From Alphaproteobacteria bacterium (lineage in GTDB: Bacteria > Pseudomonadota > Alphaproteobacteria > CAAGCB01 > CAG-977), in the NCBI GenBank assembly GCA_024407875.1, contig JAKSVT010000016.1, forward strand, positions 1-51,133: a stretch of DNA of 51,133 bases, read 5' to 3'. Positions 11,179 to 25,060 of the stretch are shown piece by piece; position 1 is the stretch's first letter; each line of letters starts with the position of its first letter. The position numbers and the translations under genes were made by a program. The notes below the pieces were generated by a model that ran no database searches, was not told the DNA's origin, and worked only from the letters and a program-made list of their open reading frames with translations.

Positions 11179-13533
11179 TTAACGTGCACTATCACGGAAT
11201 TTATATTGACCAAGAATATTCCTCTTAACTTCTGATGAAAATTGTTTAGAAGCCTCTTCAGCATAACTACCTTTCTTATAGTCATGATAGCCTGTTAAAG
11301 TATCACCATCTTTAGACATCTTAGCAAATTGCTTATTTGTAGCAACATCTAGTTCTTTATTCTTTGAACGCATCTTTCCAACAGCTTTCAACTTATCTGA
11401 CAAACCAGGTCCAGCAAATTCTCCACTAGTATAAACAGCAATCATATTACCATCGAATTCATTAGCCAAAGGCTTTGCCATTGAACTTGGATTTTCAACA
11501 CCTTCTTTTGTTTTCTTAGCAAGCATTTCTTTAACAGCTTCTGTTGCACCCATATAATTTGCAGAAATGTTTCGTCTTGTCTCAGTTAAACCTTTCTTGC
11601 TTTCATCTGTCATAAGCTTTTCAGGAACATTAACTTCATCAGGGCTTATTTCTCTTTCTTCACACATTTTATAGAATTTATCTCTATTAGCTAAATCCTT
11701 CTTCTCTTCTTCAGTAAGTTCTTTCTTATCATTTATTTTAGCATCTAAAGCTTCCCATGATGCTTTTGTCTTATCAGAATAAGCTTGTTTAGCATCATAT
11801 TTTTCCTCAGCTTGTCTTCTTTGTAAATCGTTTAACACACTTTCTGTAAATGCAAAGTCTCTATCATAACATTCTTTTACTATATCACTTTGTTCTCTAG
11901 AAAGTTTTCCATCTTTACCAGGAATCAAACCTACTTTATCAATTTTTTCATCTAACGACAAAGTTTTGAAAGCTTCATATTCTTTCTCTTCTTTTTCCTT
12001 ATCTTCTTTGTCTTTATCATCTGTTGTTGTTTTAAACTTATCGTTTCCTGCTGCAACTAATTTCTTATTAAATGGTCCCAAACCCTCTTTACTATATTTT
12101 TCTACTAATTTTGGTTCAGCTGGCTCATCTGCATGTTTAGCTTGAATCTTTGGATAACGATTATCTAAATCTGCAACATAATCATTAATTGTATGACCTA
12201 ATTTATCAGGAGATTGTAATTGACTGCATGCTTCATCAGCAGCCATAATCATTTCTGGTGTTGGAACAAAATCTTTTGTAGGCATTCCTAATACACGGCA
12301 TGCAATATACATTTGTTTCTTAAATTCATCAGAACCATCAATTGTTGCAAAATCCCAACCTTTCATTTGTCCCATACGAACCATCGTTAAGCAATCATTT
12401 AATGTTGGAACTGCAGTTTTACCATTAAGTTCTGTTACACCACAAAATTGAACATTATCACCAGCAACAAATACTCTTTTTGAACTATCCAAATTCATTA
12501 TTGCTACGCCATCTTTACGCTCCACATCTTTAATTTTAGAGAAATATGACGCATATTGAGGATTTGATAAGGATCCTTCTATTTCATGTAAATCTATCCA
12601 ACGTTTTAAATCTTCTGGAGTAGCTCTAAGATTATTATTATTTGCAGGAGGTACATATCCCTCTTCCTCATCTGTCTCTTCTTCTATATGAGGAGTATCA
12701 TCTTGAGTAAATGTAAATGAACCACCATGGCCTTCAGGTTCAACAGGTCTTACATATTCTTCACCTGGATTATTAATTACAGTTTCTGGTTGTACAACAG
12801 GTTCTTCAACAGATGGTTCCACTACAACAGGTTCCTCAACTTGGACATTATCTTCAACTGGAGCATTTTCAAGTTCTTCTGGTTTAACAACATCAAAGAA
12901 ATTAACTGTATCCCCATCATTTACATTTTCCTGTTCATGAGAAGGTTCTTCATATTGAATTGTATGATCTTGAGCTTGCTCTTCGATTGGATCAATTGTT
13001 GGTTGCTGAAAATCATCTAATACTTGATCTACCGTTTGTTCTTCTCCCATTTGTGCATCATCTTGAGATACAACAGGTTCTTCAATATTTGAATTTTCAA
13101 AATCCTCTGGCTTAGCAACATCAAAGAAATTAATTGTATTTTCATCGTTTGTATTTTCTTGGTCATGCTTAGGCTCTTCATATTGAATTGTATGTGCCTT
13201 GGCTTGTTCTTCTAAAGGATCTTTTGTTGAATCATTAAAATTATCAAAAATTTGATCAAAACTCTCTTCATTATCTTTTGCCTCATCAATATGATCAGAA
13301 ACATATTGATCAGCTTCTTTTTTTGAAATTCCATATTTTGCTAAGGCTTCATAGAAATCAATTGTTGTACCAATTTCTTCTTCATTTGTATGAGAAGGTT
13401 GCTCGTACTGAATAGTGTGGCTTTCACGTTGTTCTGAAAGAGGATCATATCCATATTTTTGTTGTCTATATTCTTTTTTTCTTTGTTCGTTTAAAAATTG
13501 CTCTAAAATACGATCTTGTTTACTTTTAGCCAT
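11179..13533 (-). CDS. Large acidic repeat protein with a probable LPD7-like domain
   Basis: A 784-residue protein of unknown function. The N-terminal ~290 residues are acidic and carry three copies of a ~40-residue repeat (about 30-68, 105-145 and 181-224), each with a HTIQYE-P-H core followed by a (D/N)F(Y/F) motif. Residues ~340-430 resemble the LPD7 large polyvalent protein-associated domain: a VAGDN strand, a helix, then GWDFATIDGSDEFKKQ and a helix ending LGMP. LPD7 is known from relaxases and other proteins of conjugative elements and secreted effectors. The C-terminal half is charged and helical. No relaxase or nuclease motif is visible. A TAGGAG ribosome site precedes the ATG. It is the first gene of a likely three-gene unit. 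Confidence 0.7.
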   Translation of the reverse strand: MAKSKQDRILEQFLNEQRKKEYRQQKYGYDPLSEQRESHTIQYEQPSHTNEEEIGTTIDFYEALAKYGISKKEADQYVSDHIDEAKDNEESFDQIFDNFNDSTKDPLEEQAKAHTIQYEEPKHDQENTNDENTINFFDVAKPEDFENSNIEEPVVSQDDAQMGEEQTVDQVLDDFQQPTIDPIEEQAQDHTIQYEEPSHEQENVNDGDTVNFFDVVKPEELENAPVEDNVQVEEPVVVEPSVEEPVVQPETVINNPGEEYVRPVEPEGHGGSFTFTQDDTPHIEEETDEEEGYVPPANNNNLRATPEDLKRWIDLHEIEGSLSNPQYASYFSKIKDVERKDGVAIMNLDSSKRVFVAGDNVQFCGVTELNGKTAVPTLNDCLTMVRMGQMKGWDFATIDGSDEFKKQMYIACRVLGMPTKDFVPTPEMIMAADEACSQLQSPDKLGHTINDYVADLDNRYPKIQAKHADEPAEPKLVEKYSKEGLGPFNKKLVAAGNDKFKTTTDDKDKEDKEKEEKEYEAFKTLSLDEKIDKVGLIPGKDGKLSREQSDIVKECYDRDFAFTESVLNDLQRRQAEEKYDAKQAYSDKTKASWEALDAKINDKKELTEEEKKDLANRDKFYKMCEEREISPDEVNVPEKLMTDESKKGLTETRRNISANYMGATEAVKEMLAKKTKEGVENPSSMAKPLANEFDGNMIAVYTSGEFAGPGLSDKLKAVGKMRSKNKELDVATNKQFAKMSKDGDTLTGYHDYKKGSYAEEASKQFSSEVKRNILGQYKFRDSAR
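12862..13446 (-). repeat. Three diverged in-frame repeats of ~40 codons
   Basis: Within the 784-aa gene, three repeats start at about 13446, 13221 and 12993. Each encodes a D-P-(L/I)-x-E-Q start, then the HTIQYE core and a (T/D)x(I/V)(D/N)F(Y/F) end. Copies 2 and 3 are the closest and extend through FFDV-KPE. They point to internal duplication of a short binding motif. Confidence 0.75.
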
Positions 13534-13673
13534 AACAACAAACTCCTATAAAATACAATTATTGTTATTATATAGATAGCATATTTATTTTAAAATTCAT
13601 AGATGTTTTTGCGAAAAATTTTATTTTTTTGTCTAATATTTTTAAATTTAACAAAAGTGAAATATTCTTTAAA

Positions 13674-13713
13674 GTACAAAAAAGGCACCTGCTATAAAAC
13701 ATAACAAGTGCCT
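13674..13713 (-). terminator. Intrinsic terminator after pgk
   Basis: A 9-bp stem with one wobble (13683-13691 with 13705-13713) has T runs on both sides. It ends pgk on the minus strand and could work in both directions. Confidence 0.8.
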
Positions 13714-13734
13714 ATTTTTTTCAAAAAAATTAAA

Positions 13735-14919
13735 TTATTTTTCTAAAGCTACAACGCCTGGAAGAGCTTTTCCTTCCATCCATTCTAAGAATGCGCCACC
13801 AGCTGAAGACAAATATGATAATTTTGTAGCTACACCAGCTTTCTTCAAAGCAGAAACTGTATCGCCACCACCACCAATTGACTTCAAACCTTTAGCTGTT
13901 AAATCAGCTACAGCTTCAGCAATAGCAAATGTTGCTTTATTGAAAGGCTTAATTTCGAAAGCACCAACAGGACCATTCCAAATTACAGTCTTGCATTCTG
14001 CTAATTTAGCATTTACGTTCTTAACAGATTCTGGACCAATATCTAAAATCATCTTGTCAGCAGGAACTGCTTTAACATCTACTGTTTCATTAGCTGCATT
14101 TTCAGCAAATTCTTTAGCAACAACTGCATCAACTGGTAAAATAATTTCACAATGAGCAGCTTTAGCTTTTTCCATAATTTCACGAGCTGTATCAGCCATT
14201 TCTTTTTCACATAAAGAAGAACCAACTTCAACACCTTGTGCATACAAGAAAGTATTAGCCATACCGCCACCGATAACTAACTTATCAACTTTCTTTACTA
14301 AGTTTCCTAACAAATCTAACTTTGTAGAAACCTTAGCGCCACCAACAATAGCAGCTACTGGACGAACAGGATTTCCTAAAGCAGAATCCAAAGCTTCTAA
14401 TTCAGCTTGCATTAACAAACCTGCTGCATTTGGTTTTAATTTTGCCATACCTTCTGTTGAAGCATGAGCACGGTGAGCACATGAAAAAGCATCATTTACA
14501 TAGATATCTACGTCTTTTGCTAATTTAGCAGCAAATTCAGCATCATTCTTTTCTTCTTGAGCATAGAAACGTAAATTTTCTAACATAATTACGTCGCCAT
14601 TTTTCATAGCTTTAATAGCTGCTGTTACTTTTTCGCCAATGCAATCATCAACAAATGTAATCTTTTGTCCTAATGATTTTTCTACATCTGCTACGATTTG
14701 ACCTAAGCTCATTTCTGCAACGAATTGACCATTTGGACGGCCAAAGTGTGATGCGATAACAACTTTTGCACCTTTTGCTTGTAAAGCTTTTACTGTTGGT
14801 ACAAAACGATCAATTCTTGTTGTATCTGTAACTTTTCCTTCTTTAAAAGGAACGTTCAAGTCAGCACGTACGAAAACAACTTTTCCTGCTGCTTCTAAAT
14901 CTTTAATTGTATTAAACAT
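13735..14919 (-). CDS. pgk: Phosphoglycerate kinase
   Basis: Glycolytic and gluconeogenic enzyme of 394 residues, interconverting 1,3-bisphosphoglycerate plus ADP with 3-phosphoglycerate plus ATP. The N-terminal substrate site is seen in [11 protein letters not shown] (near 16-26) and in SHFGRPNG. The nucleotide side shows [10 protein letters not shown] (near 195) and the Gly-rich [11 protein letters not shown] near 345-356, which is the ATP-binding loop, followed by the STAGGA-like [10 protein letters not shown]. The length is normal. It lies downstream of gap, the usual glycolytic order, but a strong terminator between them means read-through or an extra promoter must supply its mRNA. Confidence 0.97.
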
Positions 14920-14957
14920 ATTTTTTCCTTGAATTAAACAAGATTAAATTTAAACCT

Positions 14958-14991
14958 AAAAAAACGGCTTCTCTTTTTCAAGGGAAGCCGT
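14958..14991 (-). terminator. Intrinsic terminator between gap and pgk
   Basis: An 8-bp perfect stem (14964-14971 with 14984-14991), extendable inward, is followed on the minus strand by a run of seven T. It lies 3' of gap and before pgk, so gap mRNA should be more abundant than the gap-pgk transcript. Confidence 0.85.
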
Positions 14992-15007
14992 CTGTTATTT
15001 TCCCATA

Positions 15008-16018
15008 TTAGAGGAATTTTGCCATAGCAACTGCTGTATCTGACATACGATTTGAGAAGCCCCATTCGTTGTCGTACCAGCTCAAAATGCGCAAGAAGTT
15101 ACCATCGATAACTTTTGTTTGATCAGCGTGGAAGATTGAGCTGTGTGAATCATGTGTAAAGTCCATAGATACTAATGGTAAATCATTGTATCCTAAGATA
15201 CCTTTTAAACGACCTGATTCTGAAGCTGCTTTAACTGCTGCATTTACTTCTTCTTCTGTTGTTGATTTTTCTAATACAACTTTCAAGTCAACTACAGATA
15301 CATCTGGTGTAGGAACACGGATAGCTGAACCTTGTAATTTACCATTCAATTCTGGTAATACTAAACCAACAGCTTTTGCAGCACCTGTTGTTGTAGGAAT
15401 CATTGACAAAGCAGCAGCACGAGCACGATATAAATCTTTGTGCAATGTATCTACTGTACGTTGGTCACCTGTGTATGAGTGAATTGTTGTCATATAACCA
15501 CGAACAATACCGAATTTTTCGTGAATTACTTTAGCAACTGGTGATAAGCAGTTTGTTGTGCAAGAACCGTTTGATACAATCTTGTGTTCTGCTGTCAATT
15601 TATCATCGTTAACGCCATATACAACTGTTAAGTCAGCGCCTTTTGAAGGAGCAGAAACTAATACGCGTTTTGCACCAGCTTCTAAATGAACTTTTGCTTT
15701 ATCAGCATCTGTGAAACGGCCTGTGCATTCATAAACGATGTCGATGTCCATTTCTTTCCATGGCAATTTTGTTGGATCTGGTTCAGCAATAACTTTTACT
15801 GTTTTTCCATTTACTGTAATTGAATTGTCTGTTGCTGAAATTTCACCAGGGAAACGACCATGAACTGAATCGAATTTCAACAAGTGAGCATTAGCTTGAG
15901 GTGAACCCAAATCATTGATAGCAACAACTTCAACATCTGTTCTGCCAGATTCTGCGATAGCACGATATGCTAAACGACCAATACGACCAAAACCATTAAT
16001 AGCAACGCGAACTGCCAT
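15008..16018 (-). CDS. gap: Glyceraldehyde-3-phosphate dehydrogenase, type I
   Basis: A 336-residue tetrameric enzyme oxidising glyceraldehyde-3-phosphate to 1,3-bisphosphoglycerate with NAD(P)+. The Rossmann motif NGFGRIGR is at 8-15 and the catalytic Cys153 is in SNGSCTTNCL. The His partner is in TTIHSYTGDQ, with the TTTGAAKAVG segment following. INDLG (35-39) carries Asp36, the residue usually linked to NAD preference. A GGAG ribosome site precedes the ATG. A candidate extended -10 promoter lies ~75 bases upstream, and a 450-base region with further promoter and operator-like elements lies beyond it. Confidence 0.97.
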   Translation of the reverse strand: MAVRVAINGFGRIGRLAYRAIAESGRTDVEVVAINDLGSPQANAHLLKFDSVHGRFPGEISATDNSITVNGKTVKVIAEPDPTKLPWKEMDIDIVYECTGRFTDADKAKVHLEAGAKRVLVSAPSKGADLTVVYGVNDDKLTAEHKIVSNGSCTTNCLSPVAKVIHEKFGIVRGYMTTIHSYTGDQRTVDTLHKDLYRARAAALSMIPTTTGAAKAVGLVLPELNGKLQGSAIRVPTPDVSVVDLKVVLEKSTTEEEVNAAVKAASESGRLKGILGYNDLPLVSMDFTHDSHSSIFHADQTKVIDGNFLRILSWYDNEWGFSNRMSDTAVAMAKFL

Positions 16019-16094
16019 TTGAATAACTCCTATAAAAAAAATAAAACTTTTTCATTATTGCCCACATTACATGGGACTTTTTGAAAACGACTGA

Positions 16095-16103
16095 ATTATA
16101 TCA
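16095..16103 (-). promoter_or_regulatory. Candidate extended -10 promoter of gap
   Basis: The minus strand reads TGATATAAT, an extended -10 (TGN plus TATAAT). No good -35 is visible at 17 bases, as often with extended -10 promoters. Transcription would start near 16088 and give a 70-base leader. A second TATAAT lies at 16230-16235 further upstream. Confidence 0.45.
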
Positions 16104-16468
16104 TATTTTAAAAAAAATAAAACTATTTTTTTGTTATCAATATATATTTTTAAATATAAGTTTGTTTTACTAACAACGCCTCTTTAAATTACGACAAATA
16201 TAGTCGTATTTCTTACTTAAAACAAGAAGATTATAGCCTAAAACAAATAAAAACTATATTTTACTATTTTTGACTAAATTAACCAAAAGCTTCACACCAA
16301 CCAACTTATTTGTTCGTACCTTAAGTATCGACCGTCAGCGTCGTGAACTTCATTTATTCCCTATCATGTGGCAATAAAATTTATGTCATCTTCCAATATA
16401 GGAGAGGAGAAAAAAAATAGTTTTTAAAGAGGAATCATTATGGAAAATAAAAAAAATCTAATGCCCCC
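16104..16468. other. Intergenic region with a palindrome and a local GC-rich hairpin
   Basis: This is the largest stretch without an obvious gene. A perfect inverted repeat TACGAC-N7-GTCGTA lies at 16190-16208, just downstream (minus strand) of a TATAAT at 16230-16235, and looks like an operator. Bases 16314-16350 are clearly richer in GC than the surroundings and form a hairpin (CGAC 16329-16332 with GTCG 16340-16343, plus outer AAGT/ACTT). That may be part of a small RNA. I recognise no known RNA family. Confidence 0.35.
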
Positions 16469-16654
16469 TTACTCATCATCATCTGATTGAATGAGCATTT
16501 CTTTAACTTCATAGTCTTTTGGGAGTGCTGACATTCTTTGTGGGAGAGAGCTTGAAGGAAAGTATTTTTCTTTACTCACTGTAATTGAAGACAACTCTTC
16601 ATCTTCGAGTTCTACAAATTCTTCATCTTTTTTCATTTTTTCTGTTTTTTCCAT
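16469..16654 (-). CDS. Small acidic hypothetical protein
   Basis: A 61-residue protein I do not recognise. It is highly charged: a Lys/Glu N-terminus (MEKTEKMKKDEEF), an acidic stretch ELEDEEL near 16-22, a Ser/Pro middle (FPSSSLPQ) and an acidic end (SDDDE). There is no membrane segment. A GGGAG-type ribosome site precedes the ATG. The isolated position, with long untranslated DNA on both sides, suggests its own promoter. The ELEDEELSSIT segment weakly recalls leader peptides of modified peptides, but there is no Gly-Gly site and no modifying enzyme nearby. Confidence 0.5.
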   Translation of the reverse strand: MEKTEKMKKDEEFVELEDEELSSITVSKEKYFPSSSLPQRMSALPKDYEVKEMLIQSDDDE

Positions 16655-16877
16655 GGTACTTCTCCCACAAAAAATAGCTCTTATATTAAATATAACGAAT
16701 GAAATGAAAAATAGTTACAGAAAAAGTTTTTGGTAAATTTTTACTGTTATTTTGATGTAGAAGAATGTTTTAAACAAACAAACTTTTTCACGACTATAAG
16801 AACTGCAAATAAGATTACTGCTTGATTTTAAATCTTAATCCCTCAACTCTCTCATATTTCAAGAAATTTATCTTAAT

Positions 16878-16919
16878 AAAAAAACAAAACCAACAGCATT
16901 TACTATAACTGTTGGTTTT
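16878..16919 (-). terminator. Intrinsic terminator after the GalT-like gene
   Basis: An 11-bp perfect stem (16886-16896 with 16909-16919) with a 12-base loop is followed on the minus strand by G and seven T. It lies 29 bases after the stop codon. The bases from 16655 to here hold nothing else I recognise apart from the presumed promoter of the 61-aa gene. Confidence 0.88.
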
Positions 16920-16947
16920 AAAAATATTTTCCAATTGAATACTAGAA

Positions 16948-18339
16948 TTAGCAATCCATTGTAGTACCACGACCCCTTGCGCTTAACAAAGAATCAGAAG
17001 TCTTAACAGTTTGTGTGTTATACAACAAACAGTTTGGTGTACAATCACATTCAGAAGCAATCTTAATAGATTTTGAAATTTTTCCTGAATTTCTCAACTC
17101 AAACATCTTTGGAACTATCTTATCACGCAAAGACCATGGATCAATTGTATTAACATAAATCTTTGTAACTGCTTCAAATCCAGCTGGCTTAGAAATACGC
17201 CACTTAATCAACACATGCCATGGAACAGCAACATCAATTGCTGGTGGACGATAATGCCATTCCTCGTTGCAAGGAATTTCGCTTCCCATAGAAGCATGAC
17301 AAGCATGAATAATATCACTCATTCCACGTACCTGTTCTACCGTCATATTCCAAGGTTGATTCTTTTCTGCTTTTGAATAAATATCTAAAGTTGGATATCT
17401 ATGTCCAAAACCTGCGAATACGATAGCATAATCATTCTCTGCAATAACTAAGTTTTGATATCCTGCATAGTTAACAGCAAAATCATTGTACATATTAGGA
17501 TATTGACGAGCCAATAAAAATTCCTGTTCATTTGCAGCACTAATTCCATCAATAGCAACTAATTGTTTATGCAAATGATCAAAAGAAGCACCTGCTGGGT
17601 TTAACCAGTTTTGAAAAACTGTAACATAACGTACATAACGATTTGACAAATAAATATCTTTTAAAGCTTTAATTGTAAAATCAATATATTGATAGTGCAT
17701 ATCTTCAGTTAATGTTCCAGAAGATGCATTTTCATCATGATCCAAACCTGGAACAAAGTGGTTCTTACCTATAATTAATTCATGGCCACCAGCAAAGAAA
17801 CTATTAGCCATAGATAATTTACGACCACTTGAAATACTATCTATTTCTTCTTTAGTCATGCCACCAATACGCATTTTTTCACTGATAACGTTTAATACGT
17901 GTTCACGGCCTTCTGGTTCAGAAATATATTCTTCACGATGGGCATTAGCCTTATCAGAAATAACAAATGCGTAGTTCTTTTCCCAATAATCATATGAAAG
18001 AATTTCAAACAAATTTGGTATTCTACGGAATTCTGCTGTTGTTTTAAACAAATCTGAAAACTTAATATTTTCTAAAACTTCAAATGATCCATCAGCTTTT
18101 TGAACTAAACGTGCTTTTTCTGGAGGATTTTTTAAATAATTAGCTGGACAAAAAGCGCAATAATCCTCAACTTCTTTTACAACACGATCAACCTTTTTCT
18201 CATCTTTTTTGTTAACAGTTGGACGTTTTCCTCTTCCAGGAACTGTCCATACTTGTGTACCTGAAAATGGATTTACTTGTTTTACAGTGCCATCAGGCAT
18301 CTTTTGTAAAAAATTTCTTTGGTAAATACTGTCGAGCAT
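16948..18339 (-). CDS. GalT-like nucleotidyltransferase, DUF4921-type family
   Basis: A 463-residue protein of the galactose-1-phosphate uridylyltransferase/HIT superfamily. It carries the family start VNPFSGTQVWTVPGRGKRP (23-40), a CxxC (61-64, CAFC) that could bind zinc or iron, and the NPPEKARLV motif. The histidine active-site motif is HLHKQ at 255-259, the HxHxQ pattern in which the second His would carry the nucleotide. Related proteins known as DUF4921 are common in Actinobacteria. The exact substrate is unknown: transfer between a sugar-1-phosphate and a nucleotide is inferred from the fold. It is divergent from a glycogen-synthase-like gene, which suggests sugar phosphate or glycogen metabolism. 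The C-terminus is Cys-rich (CDCTPNC). Confidence 0.75.
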   Translation of the reverse strand: MLDSIYQRNFLQKMPDGTVKQVNPFSGTQVWTVPGRGKRPTVNKKDEKKVDRVVKEVEDYCAFCPANYLKNPPEKARLVQKADGSFEVLENIKFSDLFKTTAEFRRIPNLFEILSYDYWEKNYAFVISDKANAHREEYISEPEGREHVLNVISEKMRIGGMTKEEIDSISSGRKLSMANSFFAGGHELIIGKNHFVPGLDHDENASSGTLTEDMHYQYIDFTIKALKDIYLSNRYVRYVTVFQNWLNPAGASFDHLHKQLVAIDGISAANEQEFLLARQYPNMYNDFAVNYAGYQNLVIAENDYAIVFAGFGHRYPTLDIYSKAEKNQPWNMTVEQVRGMSDIIHACHASMGSEIPCNEEWHYRPPAIDVAVPWHVLIKWRISKPAGFEAVTKIYVNTIDPWSLRDKIVPKMFELRNSGKISKSIKIASECDCTPNCLLYNTQTVKTSDSLLSARGRGTTMDC

Positions 18340-18512
18340 ATAAACCCCATCTAAAACTTATTAAAAAAATTTTAAAACGTATTTTAAACTGATTAAATAA
18401 AAAATCCACATTTTTATTAAAAATGAATAATTTTTTTATAAAAGATTGATTTATATATAAAAATCATTCAAAATATTTGCAGTTCAAATTTTTAGAAAGG
18501 ACTATAAATAAT

Positions 18513-19742
18513 ATGAAAGTTATGTTTGTAACAAAAGAATTCCCACCTCACGTATACGGCGGTGCTGGAGTACATGTTGAATATTTATCTCGCGAATTAG
18601 CAAAATTAATGGACGTTGAAGTACGTTGTTTCTTTGATGAAAAAAATGGGAAAAACGGAAATTTAGAAATTGCTGGTATTAACCCTGATAAAAATTTATT
18701 TAAAGATTGTCCTAAACAATTAGCTTCTCCACTTGAAGCTGCTTATAATGGTTTAGCTTTTGCTGGGAAAGATATGACTGCAGATATTTGCCACTGCCAC
18801 ACATGGTATGCTCATTTTGCAGGAATATTAGCAAAGATTTTATATGGTATTCCTTTAGTAATTACAGTTCACTCATTAGAACCATTACGTCCATGGAAAC
18901 GTGAACAATTAGGCCGCGGATATGATATGTCTGCTTGGGTTGAAAAAACAGCATTAGAAATGGCTGATGCTATTGTTGCAGTTTCACAAAGCACAAAAGA
19001 AGACGTAATTCGTTTGTTCCCTAAAATTGATCCTAAAAAAATCTCAATTATTTACAATGGTATTGATGTAAATCAATATAAAGAAATTGAAGACACTGCT
19101 GTATTACAAAAATACGGAATCAGAGCTGACAAACCTTACATATTGTTTGTAGGACGTATGACACGCCAAAAAGGCGTAAAATACTTAATTAAAGCTGCAA
19201 CAAAAATCGATCCAAATGCTCAAATCGTTTTATGTGCTGGCGAAGCAGATACAAAAGAATTGCAAGAGGAAATGACTGAAATGGTAAAAACCTTGCAAAA
19301 ATCCCGCCCTGGCGTAATTTGGATTCCTGAAATGGTTTCAAAAGATGATCCTACAAAACATGATATTATTGCTTTATATTCACAAGCAAGCGTATTTGTA
19401 TGTCCATCAATTTATGAACCATTTGGAATTATCAACTTAGAAGCAATGGCATGTAATACACCTGTTGTTGCATCTGCTGTTGGTGGAATTAAAGAAGTCG
19501 TTGTTGATGGTGAAACTGGATATTTAATTGATCCTAAATTATCAGATGTTCCACCTAATGACCCTGAAGATCCAGAAGATTTTGCAAATCGTATGGCTGA
19601 AGCTATTAACAAATTACTTCGTGACCCAGCTCTTGCAAAACAAATGGGACAAGCAAGTCGTTTAAGAGTTGAAAAACAATTCAGTTGGCAAAGTATTGCT
19701 CAACAAACTAAAGATTTATATGCTTCTTTAATAAAGAAATAA
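18513..19742 (+). CDS. Glycogen synthase, GT4 family (GlgA/GlgM type)
   Basis: A 409-residue retaining glycosyltransferase of GT-B fold. The N-terminal loop reads KEFPPHVYGGAGVHVE, the acceptor and donor loop of the actinobacterial-type GT4 glycogen synthases. Then come HCHTWYAHFAG and the VSQSTKED segment. The C-terminal domain has FVGRMTRQKGV and the donor-site E-x7-E motif (EPFGIINLEAMA). Mycobacterial relatives (GlgM) make maltose-1-phosphate from ADP-glucose and glucose-1-phosphate. Glycogen chain extension is the alternative. The frame opens at a TTG at 18477. The ATG at 18513, 11-12 bases after AGAAAGGA, matches the family start and is preferred. No branching enzyme or ADP-glucose synthase is in the window. 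Confidence 0.88.
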   Translation: MKVMFVTKEFPPHVYGGAGVHVEYLSRELAKLMDVEVRCFFDEKNGKNGNLEIAGINPDKNLFKDCPKQLASPLEAAYNGLAFAGKDMTADICHCHTWYAHFAGILAKILYGIPLVITVHSLEPLRPWKREQLGRGYDMSAWVEKTALEMADAIVAVSQSTKEDVIRLFPKIDPKKISIIYNGIDVNQYKEIEDTAVLQKYGIRADKPYILFVGRMTRQKGVKYLIKAATKIDPNAQIVLCAGEADTKELQEEMTEMVKTLQKSRPGVIWIPEMVSKDDPTKHDIIALYSQASVFVCPSIYEPFGIINLEAMACNTPVVASAVGGIKEVVVDGETGYLIDPKLSDVPPNDPEDPEDFANRMAEAINKLLRDPALAKQMGQASRLRVEKQFSWQSIAQQTKDLYASLIKK

Positions 19743-19767
19743 TTGAGCAATATATAAATAACTTTTT

Positions 19768-19804
19768 AGAGGTTGAATAGGAAACTATCCAACCTCTTCT
19801 TTTA
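19768..19804 (+). terminator. Intrinsic terminator after the glycogen synthase gene
   Basis: An 8-bp stem plus a 4-bp inner stem across one mismatch (19768-19780 with 19785-19797) is capped by a GAAA tetraloop and followed by TCTTTT. It ends the plus-strand gene facing ligA. Confidence 0.85.
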
Positions 19805-19834
19805 AATTCATTACTATAATCAATATTTAAAACA

Positions 19835-23097
<3,263 letters not shown>

Positions 23098-23240
23098 AGA
23101 AACACACTCGCTATCTTAAAATAACTTTGATGCTAGTTTAAAAAAATATTATTTAAAAAGCAAATTAAAACTTCTTGAATTACGTGAAAAATTAGAATAA
23201 TTCAATCTATATAATAAGGATTTTTTAGGTTTAAAAAAGC

Positions 23241-23843
23241 ATGAATAAAAACAACCAAATTACATTGGAATTTTATAAAAAACAAGCAAATGAATTTGTG
23301 AATTCAACTCAAAATTTAGAATTTTCAGAACTTCAAAATGATTTTATTTCTAAAATAAAGCCAAATGGAAAAATTTTAGATTTGGGGTGTGGAGCTGGAC
23401 GAGATTCTAAAGCATTTTTATCAAAAGGTTTTGATGTAATTGCTGTAGATGCTTCAAAAGAAATGTGTGAAGTTGCTAGCAAATTTACTAATTTAAATGT
23501 CATAAATGAAACCTTTCAATCTTATACCCATAATGATAACGATTTAGATGGTATTTGGGCTTGTGCTTCTTTGCTTCATTTATCAAAAAATGAGCTTCCT
23601 TCTATATTTGAAAAATATTCAAAAATGTTAAAAATAAATGGAATATTTTATGCTTCTTTCAAATACGGAGATTTTAATGGTATAACTCATGAAAGATATT
23701 ATACCTATCTTACAGAAACATCATTTAACGAAATTATCAAAGACATACACTCATTGAAGGTTTTATCTTTGAAAACTACATTTGACGTTCGTTCAGATAG
23801 GCATAATGAAAAATGGTTAAATATTTTTATGGAAAAAGTTTAG
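23241..23843 (+). CDS. Class I SAM-dependent methyltransferase
   Basis: A 200-residue soluble methyltransferase. Motif I is LDLGCGAGRDSKAF (near 46-59), with an acidic residue ending the second strand in VIAVDASKEM. A motif like DGIWACASLLHL follows near 99-110, as in small TehB/UbiE-like enzymes. The substrate cannot be told from sequence. The end overlaps the 3' end of the CNT transporter gene by 4 bases in convergent orientation, and no terminator is seen between them. The upstream region of ~140 bases to the metallopeptidase gene must hold promoters for both directions. Confidence 0.85.
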   Translation: MNKNNQITLEFYKKQANEFVNSTQNLEFSELQNDFISKIKPNGKILDLGCGAGRDSKAFLSKGFDVIAVDASKEMCEVASKFTNLNVINETFQSYTHNDNDLDGIWACASLLHLSKNELPSIFEKYSKMLKINGIFYASFKYGDFNGITHERYYTYLTETSFNEIIKDIHSLKVLSLKTTFDVRSDRHNEKWLNIFMEKV

Positions 23844-25060
23844 TTATAAAACACTCCAGCAATACAACCTGTTATTAATGTAGCTAAAAATGCAGAAAAC
23901 AAAGATTTATATGCAATTTTAGATGCAACAGACAATTTTTCTGGAACTAATGAATTAATAGATCCTAAAGCTATACCAATAGATCCAACATTTGCAAAAC
24001 CACATAAAGCATAAGAGGCTATCATAGCTGATCTATCAGAAATAGCTCCAACTTTAACAAATTCTCCCAATCCAATATAAGAAGGAATTTCTGTTAAAAT
24101 AGTTCTTATGCCTAACAATTCGGAAATTTTCAATATATCAGATGGATCAACGCCTAAAAAGAATGTAAAAGGAACAAAAGCATATCCTAAAATTTGTGTC
24201 AAAGTTATAGGGCAGATATAGTTTATAAGCATATTAGCAATACCTATTAAACCAATGATTGCAATTAACATCATACATATATTGCAAATCATTTTTCCGC
24301 CATCTGTAGCACAAGCAACAATTGTACCATTAAACGTTTTATAAGATTCAGGCTTTTCAACTTTAATATTAAAATCTTCTACATCTTCTGTTTCTGGTTC
24401 CATTATTTTAGCAATGATAACGGCAGCAGGAAGAGAAATAATAGATGCACTTACTAAATGTCCTGCAATTGTTGGAAACTTAGCTGAAAGAACAGATACA
24501 TATAATGCAAGTGTAGATGATGCAACAGTTGACATAAAACATGTAAACATCAAGAAAATTTGAGATTTCGTTAACTTATTCAAATAAGGTCTAATACTTA
24601 AAAAAGATTCTGTTCCTACAAATAAACTACATGCAGAATATATAGATTCCATTACAGAAATTCCGAAAAGTTTTCTTGATAATGAAGCGATTTTCGAAAT
24701 AATAAATGTCATTATACCTACGTAATATAAAATCCCAAACAAAGCAGAAAATACTATTATCAAAGGCATAGCTTGGAATAAAAATACAAAGCCATTTTTA
24801 TCATCTTGAACACCTAAATATCCTAAAACGAATTTTGGTCCCTCTCTTGCAGCATCAATTAATTTGTCAAAAGCTTCACTAAACCACAATAAAAAATCTC
24901 TACTGATTGGTAACAAAAAAACAGGTACAGCTATCAAAAAAGATGTTAAAAGTGCTACTAAAACTGTTCTATAATTAATTGCTTTTCTATTTGAACTGCA
25001 CAAATATGCAATTCCCATAAAGACGAAAATACCTAAAAGACTTATAATTTTTTGAGACAT
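23840..25060 (-). CDS. Concentrative nucleoside transporter (CNT/NupC family)
   Basis: A 406-residue inner-membrane protein with roughly 9-10 hydrophobic segments. It is expected to import nucleosides with H+ or Na+. Family marks are the N-terminal helical part, the gate region FQAMPLIIVFSALFGILYYVG, the nucleoside/ion site GTESFLSIRPYL (near 150-161) and the ending CGFANVGSIGIALG (near 352-365), which is highly typical of CNT proteins. It is intact and of normal bacterial length. Gln in the first binding motif (GQTE in NupC) is replaced here by GTES, so specificity may differ. A good AAAGGA ribosome site precedes the ATG. Nucleoside uptake fits a host-associated, salvage-dependent lifestyle (inference). 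Confidence 0.92.
   Translation of the reverse strand: MSQKIISLLGIFVFMGIAYLCSSNRKAINYRTVLVALLTSFLIAVPVFLLPISRDFLLWFSEAFDKLIDAAREGPKFVLGYLGVQDDKNGFVFLFQAMPLIIVFSALFGILYYVGIMTFIISKIASLSRKLFGISVMESIYSACSLFVGTESFLSIRPYLNKLTKSQIFLMFTCFMSTVASSTLALYVSVLSAKFPTIAGHLVSASIISLPAAVIIAKIMEPETEDVEDFNIKVEKPESYKTFNGTIVACATDGGKMICNICMMLIAIIGLIGIANMLINYICPITLTQILGYAFVPFTFFLGVDPSDILKISELLGIRTILTEIPSYIGLGEFVKVGAISDRSAMIASYALCGFANVGSIGIALGSINSLVPEKLSVASKIAYKSLFSAFLATLITGCIAGVFYN

Follow-up and report, generated by a model that had tools for sequence, protein, structure and literature searches.

A divergent DUF4921 and GlgM-type gene pair and a complete, apparently trehalose-free set of GlgC-GlgM-GlgE pathway genes in an alphaproteobacterium

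The closest described counterpart of the system discussed here is the mycobacterial GlgC-GlgM-GlgE pathway, for which the available sections of PMC4981310, PMC7137382 and PMC11046441 give GlgC, a GT4-type GlgM, GlgE, a maltokinase and GlgB. In the scheme outlined in a 2024 review (PMC11046441, as excerpted), the GlgC-GlgM route operates in actinomycetes alongside TreS, while other bacteria with GlgE use TreS-Pep2/Mak only. GT4 synthases with or without glgE have been noted in both Gram-positive and Gram-negative bacteria (passages in PMC4981310), and for Defluviicoccus, glgM is listed together with treS and glgE (PMC9041414, in the section available). Given these two reports, the occurrence of GlgM and GlgE in alphaproteobacteria is not new. 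A plant enzyme, At5g18200, phosphorolyses ADP-glucose (available text of PMC6329318 and PMC11066809), and its role in plants is stated as unknown in the corresponding text of PMC11066809. Here, we discuss contig JAKSVT010000016.1 of an alphaproteobacterial genome (assembly GCA_024407875.1; GTDB family CAG-977), a stretch of 51,133 nucleotides that we refer to in full as the window, on which a gene for a DUF4921 protein and a gene for a GlgM-type synthase lie back to back. The genome appears to be the reverse of the scheme excerpted from PMC11046441, carrying GlgM without TreS. No account of a GlgM-fed GlgE pathway without TreS, or of DUF4921, was found in the open-licence literature to the extent that its text is accessible, and the terms "DUF4921" and "TM0896" returned no paper there.

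The source genome is a 47-contig draft of 1.77 Mb that is 96.6% complete, and the window is its contig C8 (labels beginning with C, G and L are ours for contigs, genomes and loci). The host alphaproteobacterium has relatives in animal guts. The features of the locus, in window coordinates, are:

16948-18339, minus strand: DUF4921 protein of 463 amino acids (aa), a GalT/HIT-superfamily nucleotidylyltransferase and proposed ADP-glucose phosphorylase (PF16268, AlphaFold2 model, profile search)
17563-17577, minus strand: HLHKQ, residues 255-259 of the DUF4921 protein, the HxHxQ catalytic motif (alignments)
18148-18159, minus strand: CAFC, residues 61-64 of the DUF4921 protein, candidate metal-binding Cys pair (alignment with 1z84)
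18340-18512, no strand: divergent intergenic region of 173 bases (123-216 bases in relatives)
18513-19742, plus strand: GlgM-type GT4 alpha-maltose-1-phosphate synthase, 409 aa from ATG (TIGR02149, PDB match, donor residues)

The initial annotation had placed divergent GalT-like/DUF4921 and GlgM-type genes here, and the coordinates and family assignments bear this out. The DUF4921 protein matches PF16268, in the GalT/HIT superfamily, with 638 bits against a cut-off of 28.5 and covers the full profile (1-425 of 425), and the GlgM protein matches TIGR02149 (glgA_Coryne) with 535.8 bits against a cut-off of 302.4. The closest chain to GlgM in the Protein Data Bank (PDB) is 6tvp_A, an alpha-maltose-1-phosphate synthase (E 9.2e-109). 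Moreover, the donor-site residues of Mycobacterium smegmatis GlgM listed in the available part of PMC7137382 (His109, Val146, Asn171, Arg207, Lys212, Glu289, Gly292 and Ile293) are identical here at eight of eight positions. Since these residues are common to the GT5 synthases too, they indicate the donor and not the acceptor; features that set acceptor specificity are described in the same part of PMC7137382 as not yet established. The glgM gene itself is the sole match in the genome to PF08323, the GT5 synthase domain. Its open frame starts upstream of the ATG, at TTG 18477 (421 aa). An alignment made by eye places a TTGACG-like block upstream of glgM in relatives, and sigma-70-like matches between window positions 16000 and 19900 number 15 against a shuffle mean of 18.5, that is, no excess.

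The other genes of the pathway are located on other contigs. Contig C4 carries an operon of glgE, a maltokinase gene, glgB, glgX and malQ (L014:7620-18034). GlgE (L014:7620-9746) matches PF11896 with 161.8 bits and PF21702 with 53.5 bits, the maltokinase scores 398.6 bits (TIGR02457, cut-off 375.05), and GlgB, GlgX and MalQ score 958 (TIGR01515), 1008 and 430.6 bits (TIGR00217). G073, which belongs to a second genus within the family, repeats the operon order, as does G002, which comes from a different family and whose glgE extends to the contig end. GlgC is encoded on C1 (503.5 bits) and scores above its cut-off, which holds for all 12 family genomes; glycogen phosphorylase (glgP) lies on C2 and a second GlgX on C14 (L015:8071-10260). 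Opposite the end of the glgE operon lies a gene for a second 4-alpha-glucanotransferase-like protein (L014:18531-19976; 481 aa) with a Glyco_hydro_77 profile match at 180-451 and a long extra C-terminal part. In terms of gene content, the GlgC-GlgM-GlgE route is complete in the genome. The absence of glgB, glgC and glgE reported by the initial annotation thus holds for the window, as PF00128 and TIGR02091 searches of the genome placed none of them on C8, and fails for the genome, in which glgC is on C1 and glgE and glgB are on C4. The reduced storage route that it proposed does not agree with glgC, the five-gene operon and glgP in one genome. The idea of an altered route is partly borne out, in that no trehalose enzyme was identified. 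As a separate matter, a role of DUF4921 as a replacement for GlgC is ruled out by the GlgC matches in all 12 family genomes.

An alpha-amylase search (E up to 0.001) finds five GH13 genes in the genome, encoding GlgE, GlgB, two GlgX and an 851-aa protein with an N-terminal hydrophobic stretch. None of the five in this draft genome reaches the TreS, TreY or TreZ cut-offs; the search for treS suggested alongside those for glgC, glgB and glgE therefore gave, unlike the other three, no gene, the best score being 202.6 bits, for the 851-aa protein, against a cut-off of 678. There is also no GT20 match, as expected of OtsA, in the window's own genome, and one in 1 of the 12 family genomes (G193). 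The trehalose-free claim covers the window's own genome, TreS, TreY and TreZ having been typed for this genome and for L157. In G002, a 1089-aa frame (L185) with a MalQ-like start might carry TreY. Compared with the mycobacterial pathway, then, TreS, TreY/TreZ and OtsA were not identified here, and the maltokinase is a stand-alone protein within the operon. With none of these enzymes identified, GlgM would be a trehalose-independent source of maltose-1-phosphate. The pathway is thus apparently trehalose-free, with GlgM and no TreS, a combination that looks unusual. A related Rhodospirillales genome encodes a TreS-Mak fusion (L157:668-3943; TreS 935.9 bits, maltokinase 533.5 bits), which raises the possibility that TreS was lost here and the kinase kept, if the change ran in that direction.

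The question is then what the DUF4921 protein contributes. Its AlphaFold2 model has a mean predicted local distance difference test score (pLDDT) of 83.4 and a predicted TM-score (pTM) of 0.87. The top fold matches of the model are the At5g18200 structure 2h39 (Z 26.3, 2.8 Å, 287 residues), 1z84 and 1zwj, followed by GalT 1gup (Z 24.5) and 1hxq (Z 24.3) and, further down, Ap4A phosphorylase 3ano (Z 10.8). Foldseek E-values likewise rank plant ADP-glucose phosphorylase entries first. A profile built from 46 aligned DUF4921 proteins retrieves solely 1z84 (3.8e-13) and 2h39 (1.5e-11) from the PDB at E up to 1, and the GalT cut-offs are far from reached (TIGR00209, 18.2 against 102.1 bits; PRK11720, 25.6 against 448 bits). 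Hence, DUF4921 comes closest to At5g18200, the plant ADP-glucose phosphorylase, both by profile and by predicted fold, and GalT follows closely in the fold comparison. The fold, the HxHxQ motif and a CxxC motif are common to At5g18200 and DUF4921, which differ in that identity is about 20% over the 287 residues and DUF4921 is about 110 residues longer.

In the HLHKQ motif, both His residues and the Gln are invariant (46/46), as is His194; Cys occupies both positions of the CxxC motif, which aligns with the CxxC of 1z84, in 43 of the 46. His257 is aligned to the position that is Gly in 2h39. The Cys pair of CAFC, His194 and His255 would resemble the zinc site of GalT. The fold, the HxHxQ motif and the position of the nucleophilic His belong to GalT as well, and so these features are not specific to the At5g18200 type. 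Both an ADP-glucose phosphorylase activity and specificity for ADP-glucose are predictions for this protein.

Of the 12 family genomes, 11 carry both the DUF4921 and the GlgM gene, in each case as neighbors on one contig, and G191 carries neither. The pair is also found in L039 and in G002, and the check on its conservation that had been proposed at the outset came out in its favor. All measured pairs (family, G002 and L039) are divergent, with spacers of 123-216 bases; apart from the window, this comparison covered 23 rows, of which 11 have spacers identical in length and sequence to those of other rows and apparently represent duplicate genomes. L039 (DGHR01000018.1) is titled Bacteroidales UBA3843, and its pair is 77% identical to that of the alphaproteobacterial family; it is probably a misnamed bin. 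DUF4921 relatives lie on at least 557 stretches, and the best 80 loci, the most query-like and not a random sample, were examined. GlgM is present in 37 of 50 DUF4921 carriers tested among these 80 loci, 36 of them above the cut-off, with the remaining match (G588, Contendobacter odensis) consisting of two fragments on two contigs, both below it. By lineage, GlgM accompanies DUF4921 in 21/28 Pseudomonadota-lineage carriers, 16/16 Actinomycetota and 0/6 others, where the split follows the record titles except that L039 (Bacteroidales) and L060 (Synechococcaceae) are counted as Pseudomonadota, the latter from its place in the DUF4921 tree and the former from its 77% identity and from where its GlgM (L134) falls. 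The 16/16 in Actinomycetota may reflect no more than a high background frequency of GlgM there. The GlgM background is 15/398 genomes in a phylum sample and 4/190 in a class sample, and DUF4921 is found in 4/190 genomes of the class. The two 398-genome searches apparently used the same draw, and two further weak DUF4921 matches in the phylum sample (31.6 and 27.3 bits; cut-off 28.5) were counted as not DUF4921. In the class sample, DUF4921 occurs in three of four GlgM carriers versus 1 of 186 other genomes; the Fisher values for co-occurrence (class 1.4e-5, phylum 0.038) take no account of kinship and do not serve as proof. On these samples, DUF4921 tends to occur where GlgM is, and the converse fails.

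How the genes are arranged differs between lineages. In the Actinomycetota, glgM is divergent from glgC in 4/4 loci examined (L167-L170), whereas here glgM lies apart and is divergent from the DUF4921 gene. Rhodospirillales and Defluviicoccus genomes, which were found via their DUF4921, encode a GlgM of the same Pseudomonadota group together with GlgE; in these, a GH13 gene and glgE come after glgM (L157, L158, L159 and L162; L172 ends before glgE), and DUF4921 is encoded elsewhere. After glgE, L157 has the TreS-Mak protein and then glgB, and L159 a protein of the same match pattern and then glgB. In Accumulibacter (L155), glgM adjoins glgE, and no glgE was seen beside glgM in the Competibacteraceae-type loci L160, L161, L163, L164 and L165. 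In Thermotoga, a DUF4921-like gene may adjoin glgA. These maps rest on mechanically called open reading frames (ORFs), and small neighbors in G+C-rich genomes are unreliable. By name, several of the closest DUF4921 carriers outside the family among the best 80 loci (Competibacter, Contendobacter, Defluviicoccus, Micropruina and Accumulibacter) are wastewater bacteria that accumulate glycogen or phosphate, a pattern that may reflect sampling.

Both proteins were also placed in trees, rooted on Actinomycetota. A 42-row GlgM tree, sampled from Pseudomonadota and Actinomycetota, is split by one branch (100/100) into 26 Pseudomonadota and 16 Actinomycetota rows, and an earlier tree of 33 rows is in agreement; long branches (Accumulibacter L136 and others) and an odd letter composition of the window row were flagged in the GlgM trees. 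The window's GlgM shares 54-62% identity with the Pseudomonadota rows that do not belong to the family, and 42-45% with the Actinomycetota rows. In the 46-row DUF4921 tree, one branch (100/99) separates the 14 Actinomycetota from the remaining rows, the window included. The window row clusters with those of its family, G002 and G050 (100/98), surrounded by Rhodospirillales-like sequences. The Pseudomonadota portion also contains five Elusimicrobia or unnamed rows, the position of the Elusimicrobia being weak (81/57). Because DUF4921 is patchy in Pseudomonadota (4/190 of the class) and its Pseudomonadota rows are not one group, older transfers are likely; the scattered occurrence of both genes points to exchange in the more distant past.

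Taken together, these data can be accommodated in a model in which GlgC supplies ADP-glucose, maltose-1-phosphate would be made de novo by GlgM, and maltose set free by MalQ and GlgX would be salvaged by the stand-alone maltokinase. Reclaiming of MalQ-derived maltose by a maltokinase is discussed for Pseudomonas in the available text of PMC11046441. DUF4921 would most likely interconvert ADP-glucose plus phosphate with ADP plus glucose-1-phosphate, via an AMP-His257 intermediate, and in this way tune or recycle both GlgM substrates. What the sequence shows directly is the identity of the genes, the conservation of the pair, the set of pathway genes, the predicted fold family and the catalytic motif; all enzyme activities and the direction of flux are model predictions. 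That a trehalose-independent GlgC-GlgM-GlgE route has DUF4921 as an ADP-glucose-converting partner is, in our judgment, a possibility just short of even. The narrower proposal, of DUF4921 as a bacterial ADP-glucose phosphorylase acting together with GlgM and balancing ADP-glucose against glucose-1-phosphate in the trehalose-free pathway of the family, is put forward tentatively.

Several observations weigh against this model. The margin of the plant enzyme above GalT is a Z of 1.8, and 2h39 and GalT 1gup have equal Foldseek TM-scores (0.54) when these are taken by query length. DUF4921 is not needed to make ADP-glucose, as GlgC is present, nor does GlgM need DUF4921, because 14 of the 15 GlgM genomes in the phylum sample lack it, the sole exception being the window's own genome. 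Absences from a 47-contig draft are not absolute. For the single DUF4921 record among 72,556 in a plasmid search (Actinomyces oris), the 14 annotated neighbors include no glycogen gene. Of the best 80 carrier loci, 12 have GlgM next to DUF4921, each of them of the alphaproteobacterial type described here, and 13 of the 50 carriers tested have no GlgM match (L050, which is G050, L057, L069, 4/4 Chromatiaceae and 6/6 Elusimicrobia or unnamed bacteria). The last two points agree with an alternative that we consider rather unlikely, in which DUF4921 is another HIT-superfamily phosphorylase, acting on a GDP-sugar, Ap4A or another nucleotide, and its place beside glgM is neutral and inherited in one lineage. 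The fold shared, at a lower Z, with the Ap4A phosphorylases would suit this alternative, as would the absence of the pair beyond the alphaproteobacterial clade; conservation of the divergent order across 11 family genomes, G002 and UBA3843 argues for more than a neutral arrangement, as does GlgM in 21/28 Pseudomonadota-lineage carriers versus 15/398 in the phylum sample. The alternatives are not mutually exclusive, and the GlgE route may also operate as described with DUF4921 as a GalT-type uridylyltransferase of galactose-1-phosphate or another hexose-1-phosphate and UDP-sugars, its substrate unrelated to GlgM. This is unlikely: the GalT-like Z values and the weak NCBIfam GalT matches favor it, but the scores remain far below the GalT cut-offs, the profile search that finds the plant enzyme finds no GalT chain, the neighbor uses ADP-glucose, and a scan confined to seven window proteins showed neither galK nor galE.

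The acceptor of the GlgM protein is unreadable from its sequence, and Corynebacterium glutamicum also has a protein above the TIGR02149 cut-off, which likewise counts against the model. The C. glutamicum protein is a GT4 glycogen synthase (GlgA) acting on glucan ends in a species not known to have GlgE. The window gene could by analogy encode a glycogen synthase, with GlgE fed by the maltokinase alone; membership of the same curated family, the lack of a detected GT5 GlgA in the genome and the presence of the maltokinase agree with this. We nevertheless regard it as improbable, as GlgE is encoded in the same genome, glgM stands in line with glgE in four Rhodospirillales-type loci, and, in the available text of PMC4981310 and PMC7137382, the only GlgA homologues of Gram-positives with glgE are of the GT4 type, and the activity given for the mycobacterial enzyme is that of a maltose-1-phosphate synthase. 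Far less probable still is the storage route, reduced or altered and recently acquired from actinobacteria, that the initial annotation envisaged. The rarity of DUF4921 and TIGR02149 proteins in the class (4/190 each) and the presence of both in Actinomycetota speak for it; in opposition are the complete pathway genes and both trees, which put the two proteins outside well-supported Actinomycetota clades, with GlgM closer to Pseudomonadota in identity as well. Recent transfer from actinobacteria is thus not supported.

Other genes lie near the pair. In the window, pgk and gapdh adjoin it on the minus strand (13735-16018), and in G073 (L018), triosephosphate isomerase- and enolase-like genes, recognized by eye, do so. 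Window positions 11179-13533 encode a 784-aa protein with acidic repeats and a weak match (30 bits) to LPD7 (large polyvalent protein-associated), unusual beside glycolysis genes, and positions 21964-23097 a 377-aa protein with an N-terminal hydrophobic stretch and a match (139 bits) to DUF6782, a putative metallopeptidase. An nrdD gene (anaerobic ribonucleotide reductase) lies near the pair, or near DUF4921 alone (L050), in nine of the best 80 loci (L040, L041, L042, L043, L045, L046, L049, L050 and L052), all with alphaproteobacterial or Rhodospirillales titles and six also with nrdG; the ORFs listed for window positions 12000-25000 do not include nrdD.

Returning to the ADP-glucose phosphorylase model, the conserved glgM neighbor suggests a concrete, assayable function for the widespread, uncharacterized DUF4921 family. 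If the model is true, it would provide a bacterial, physiological setting for ADP-glucose phosphorolysis, an activity known from the plant enzyme.

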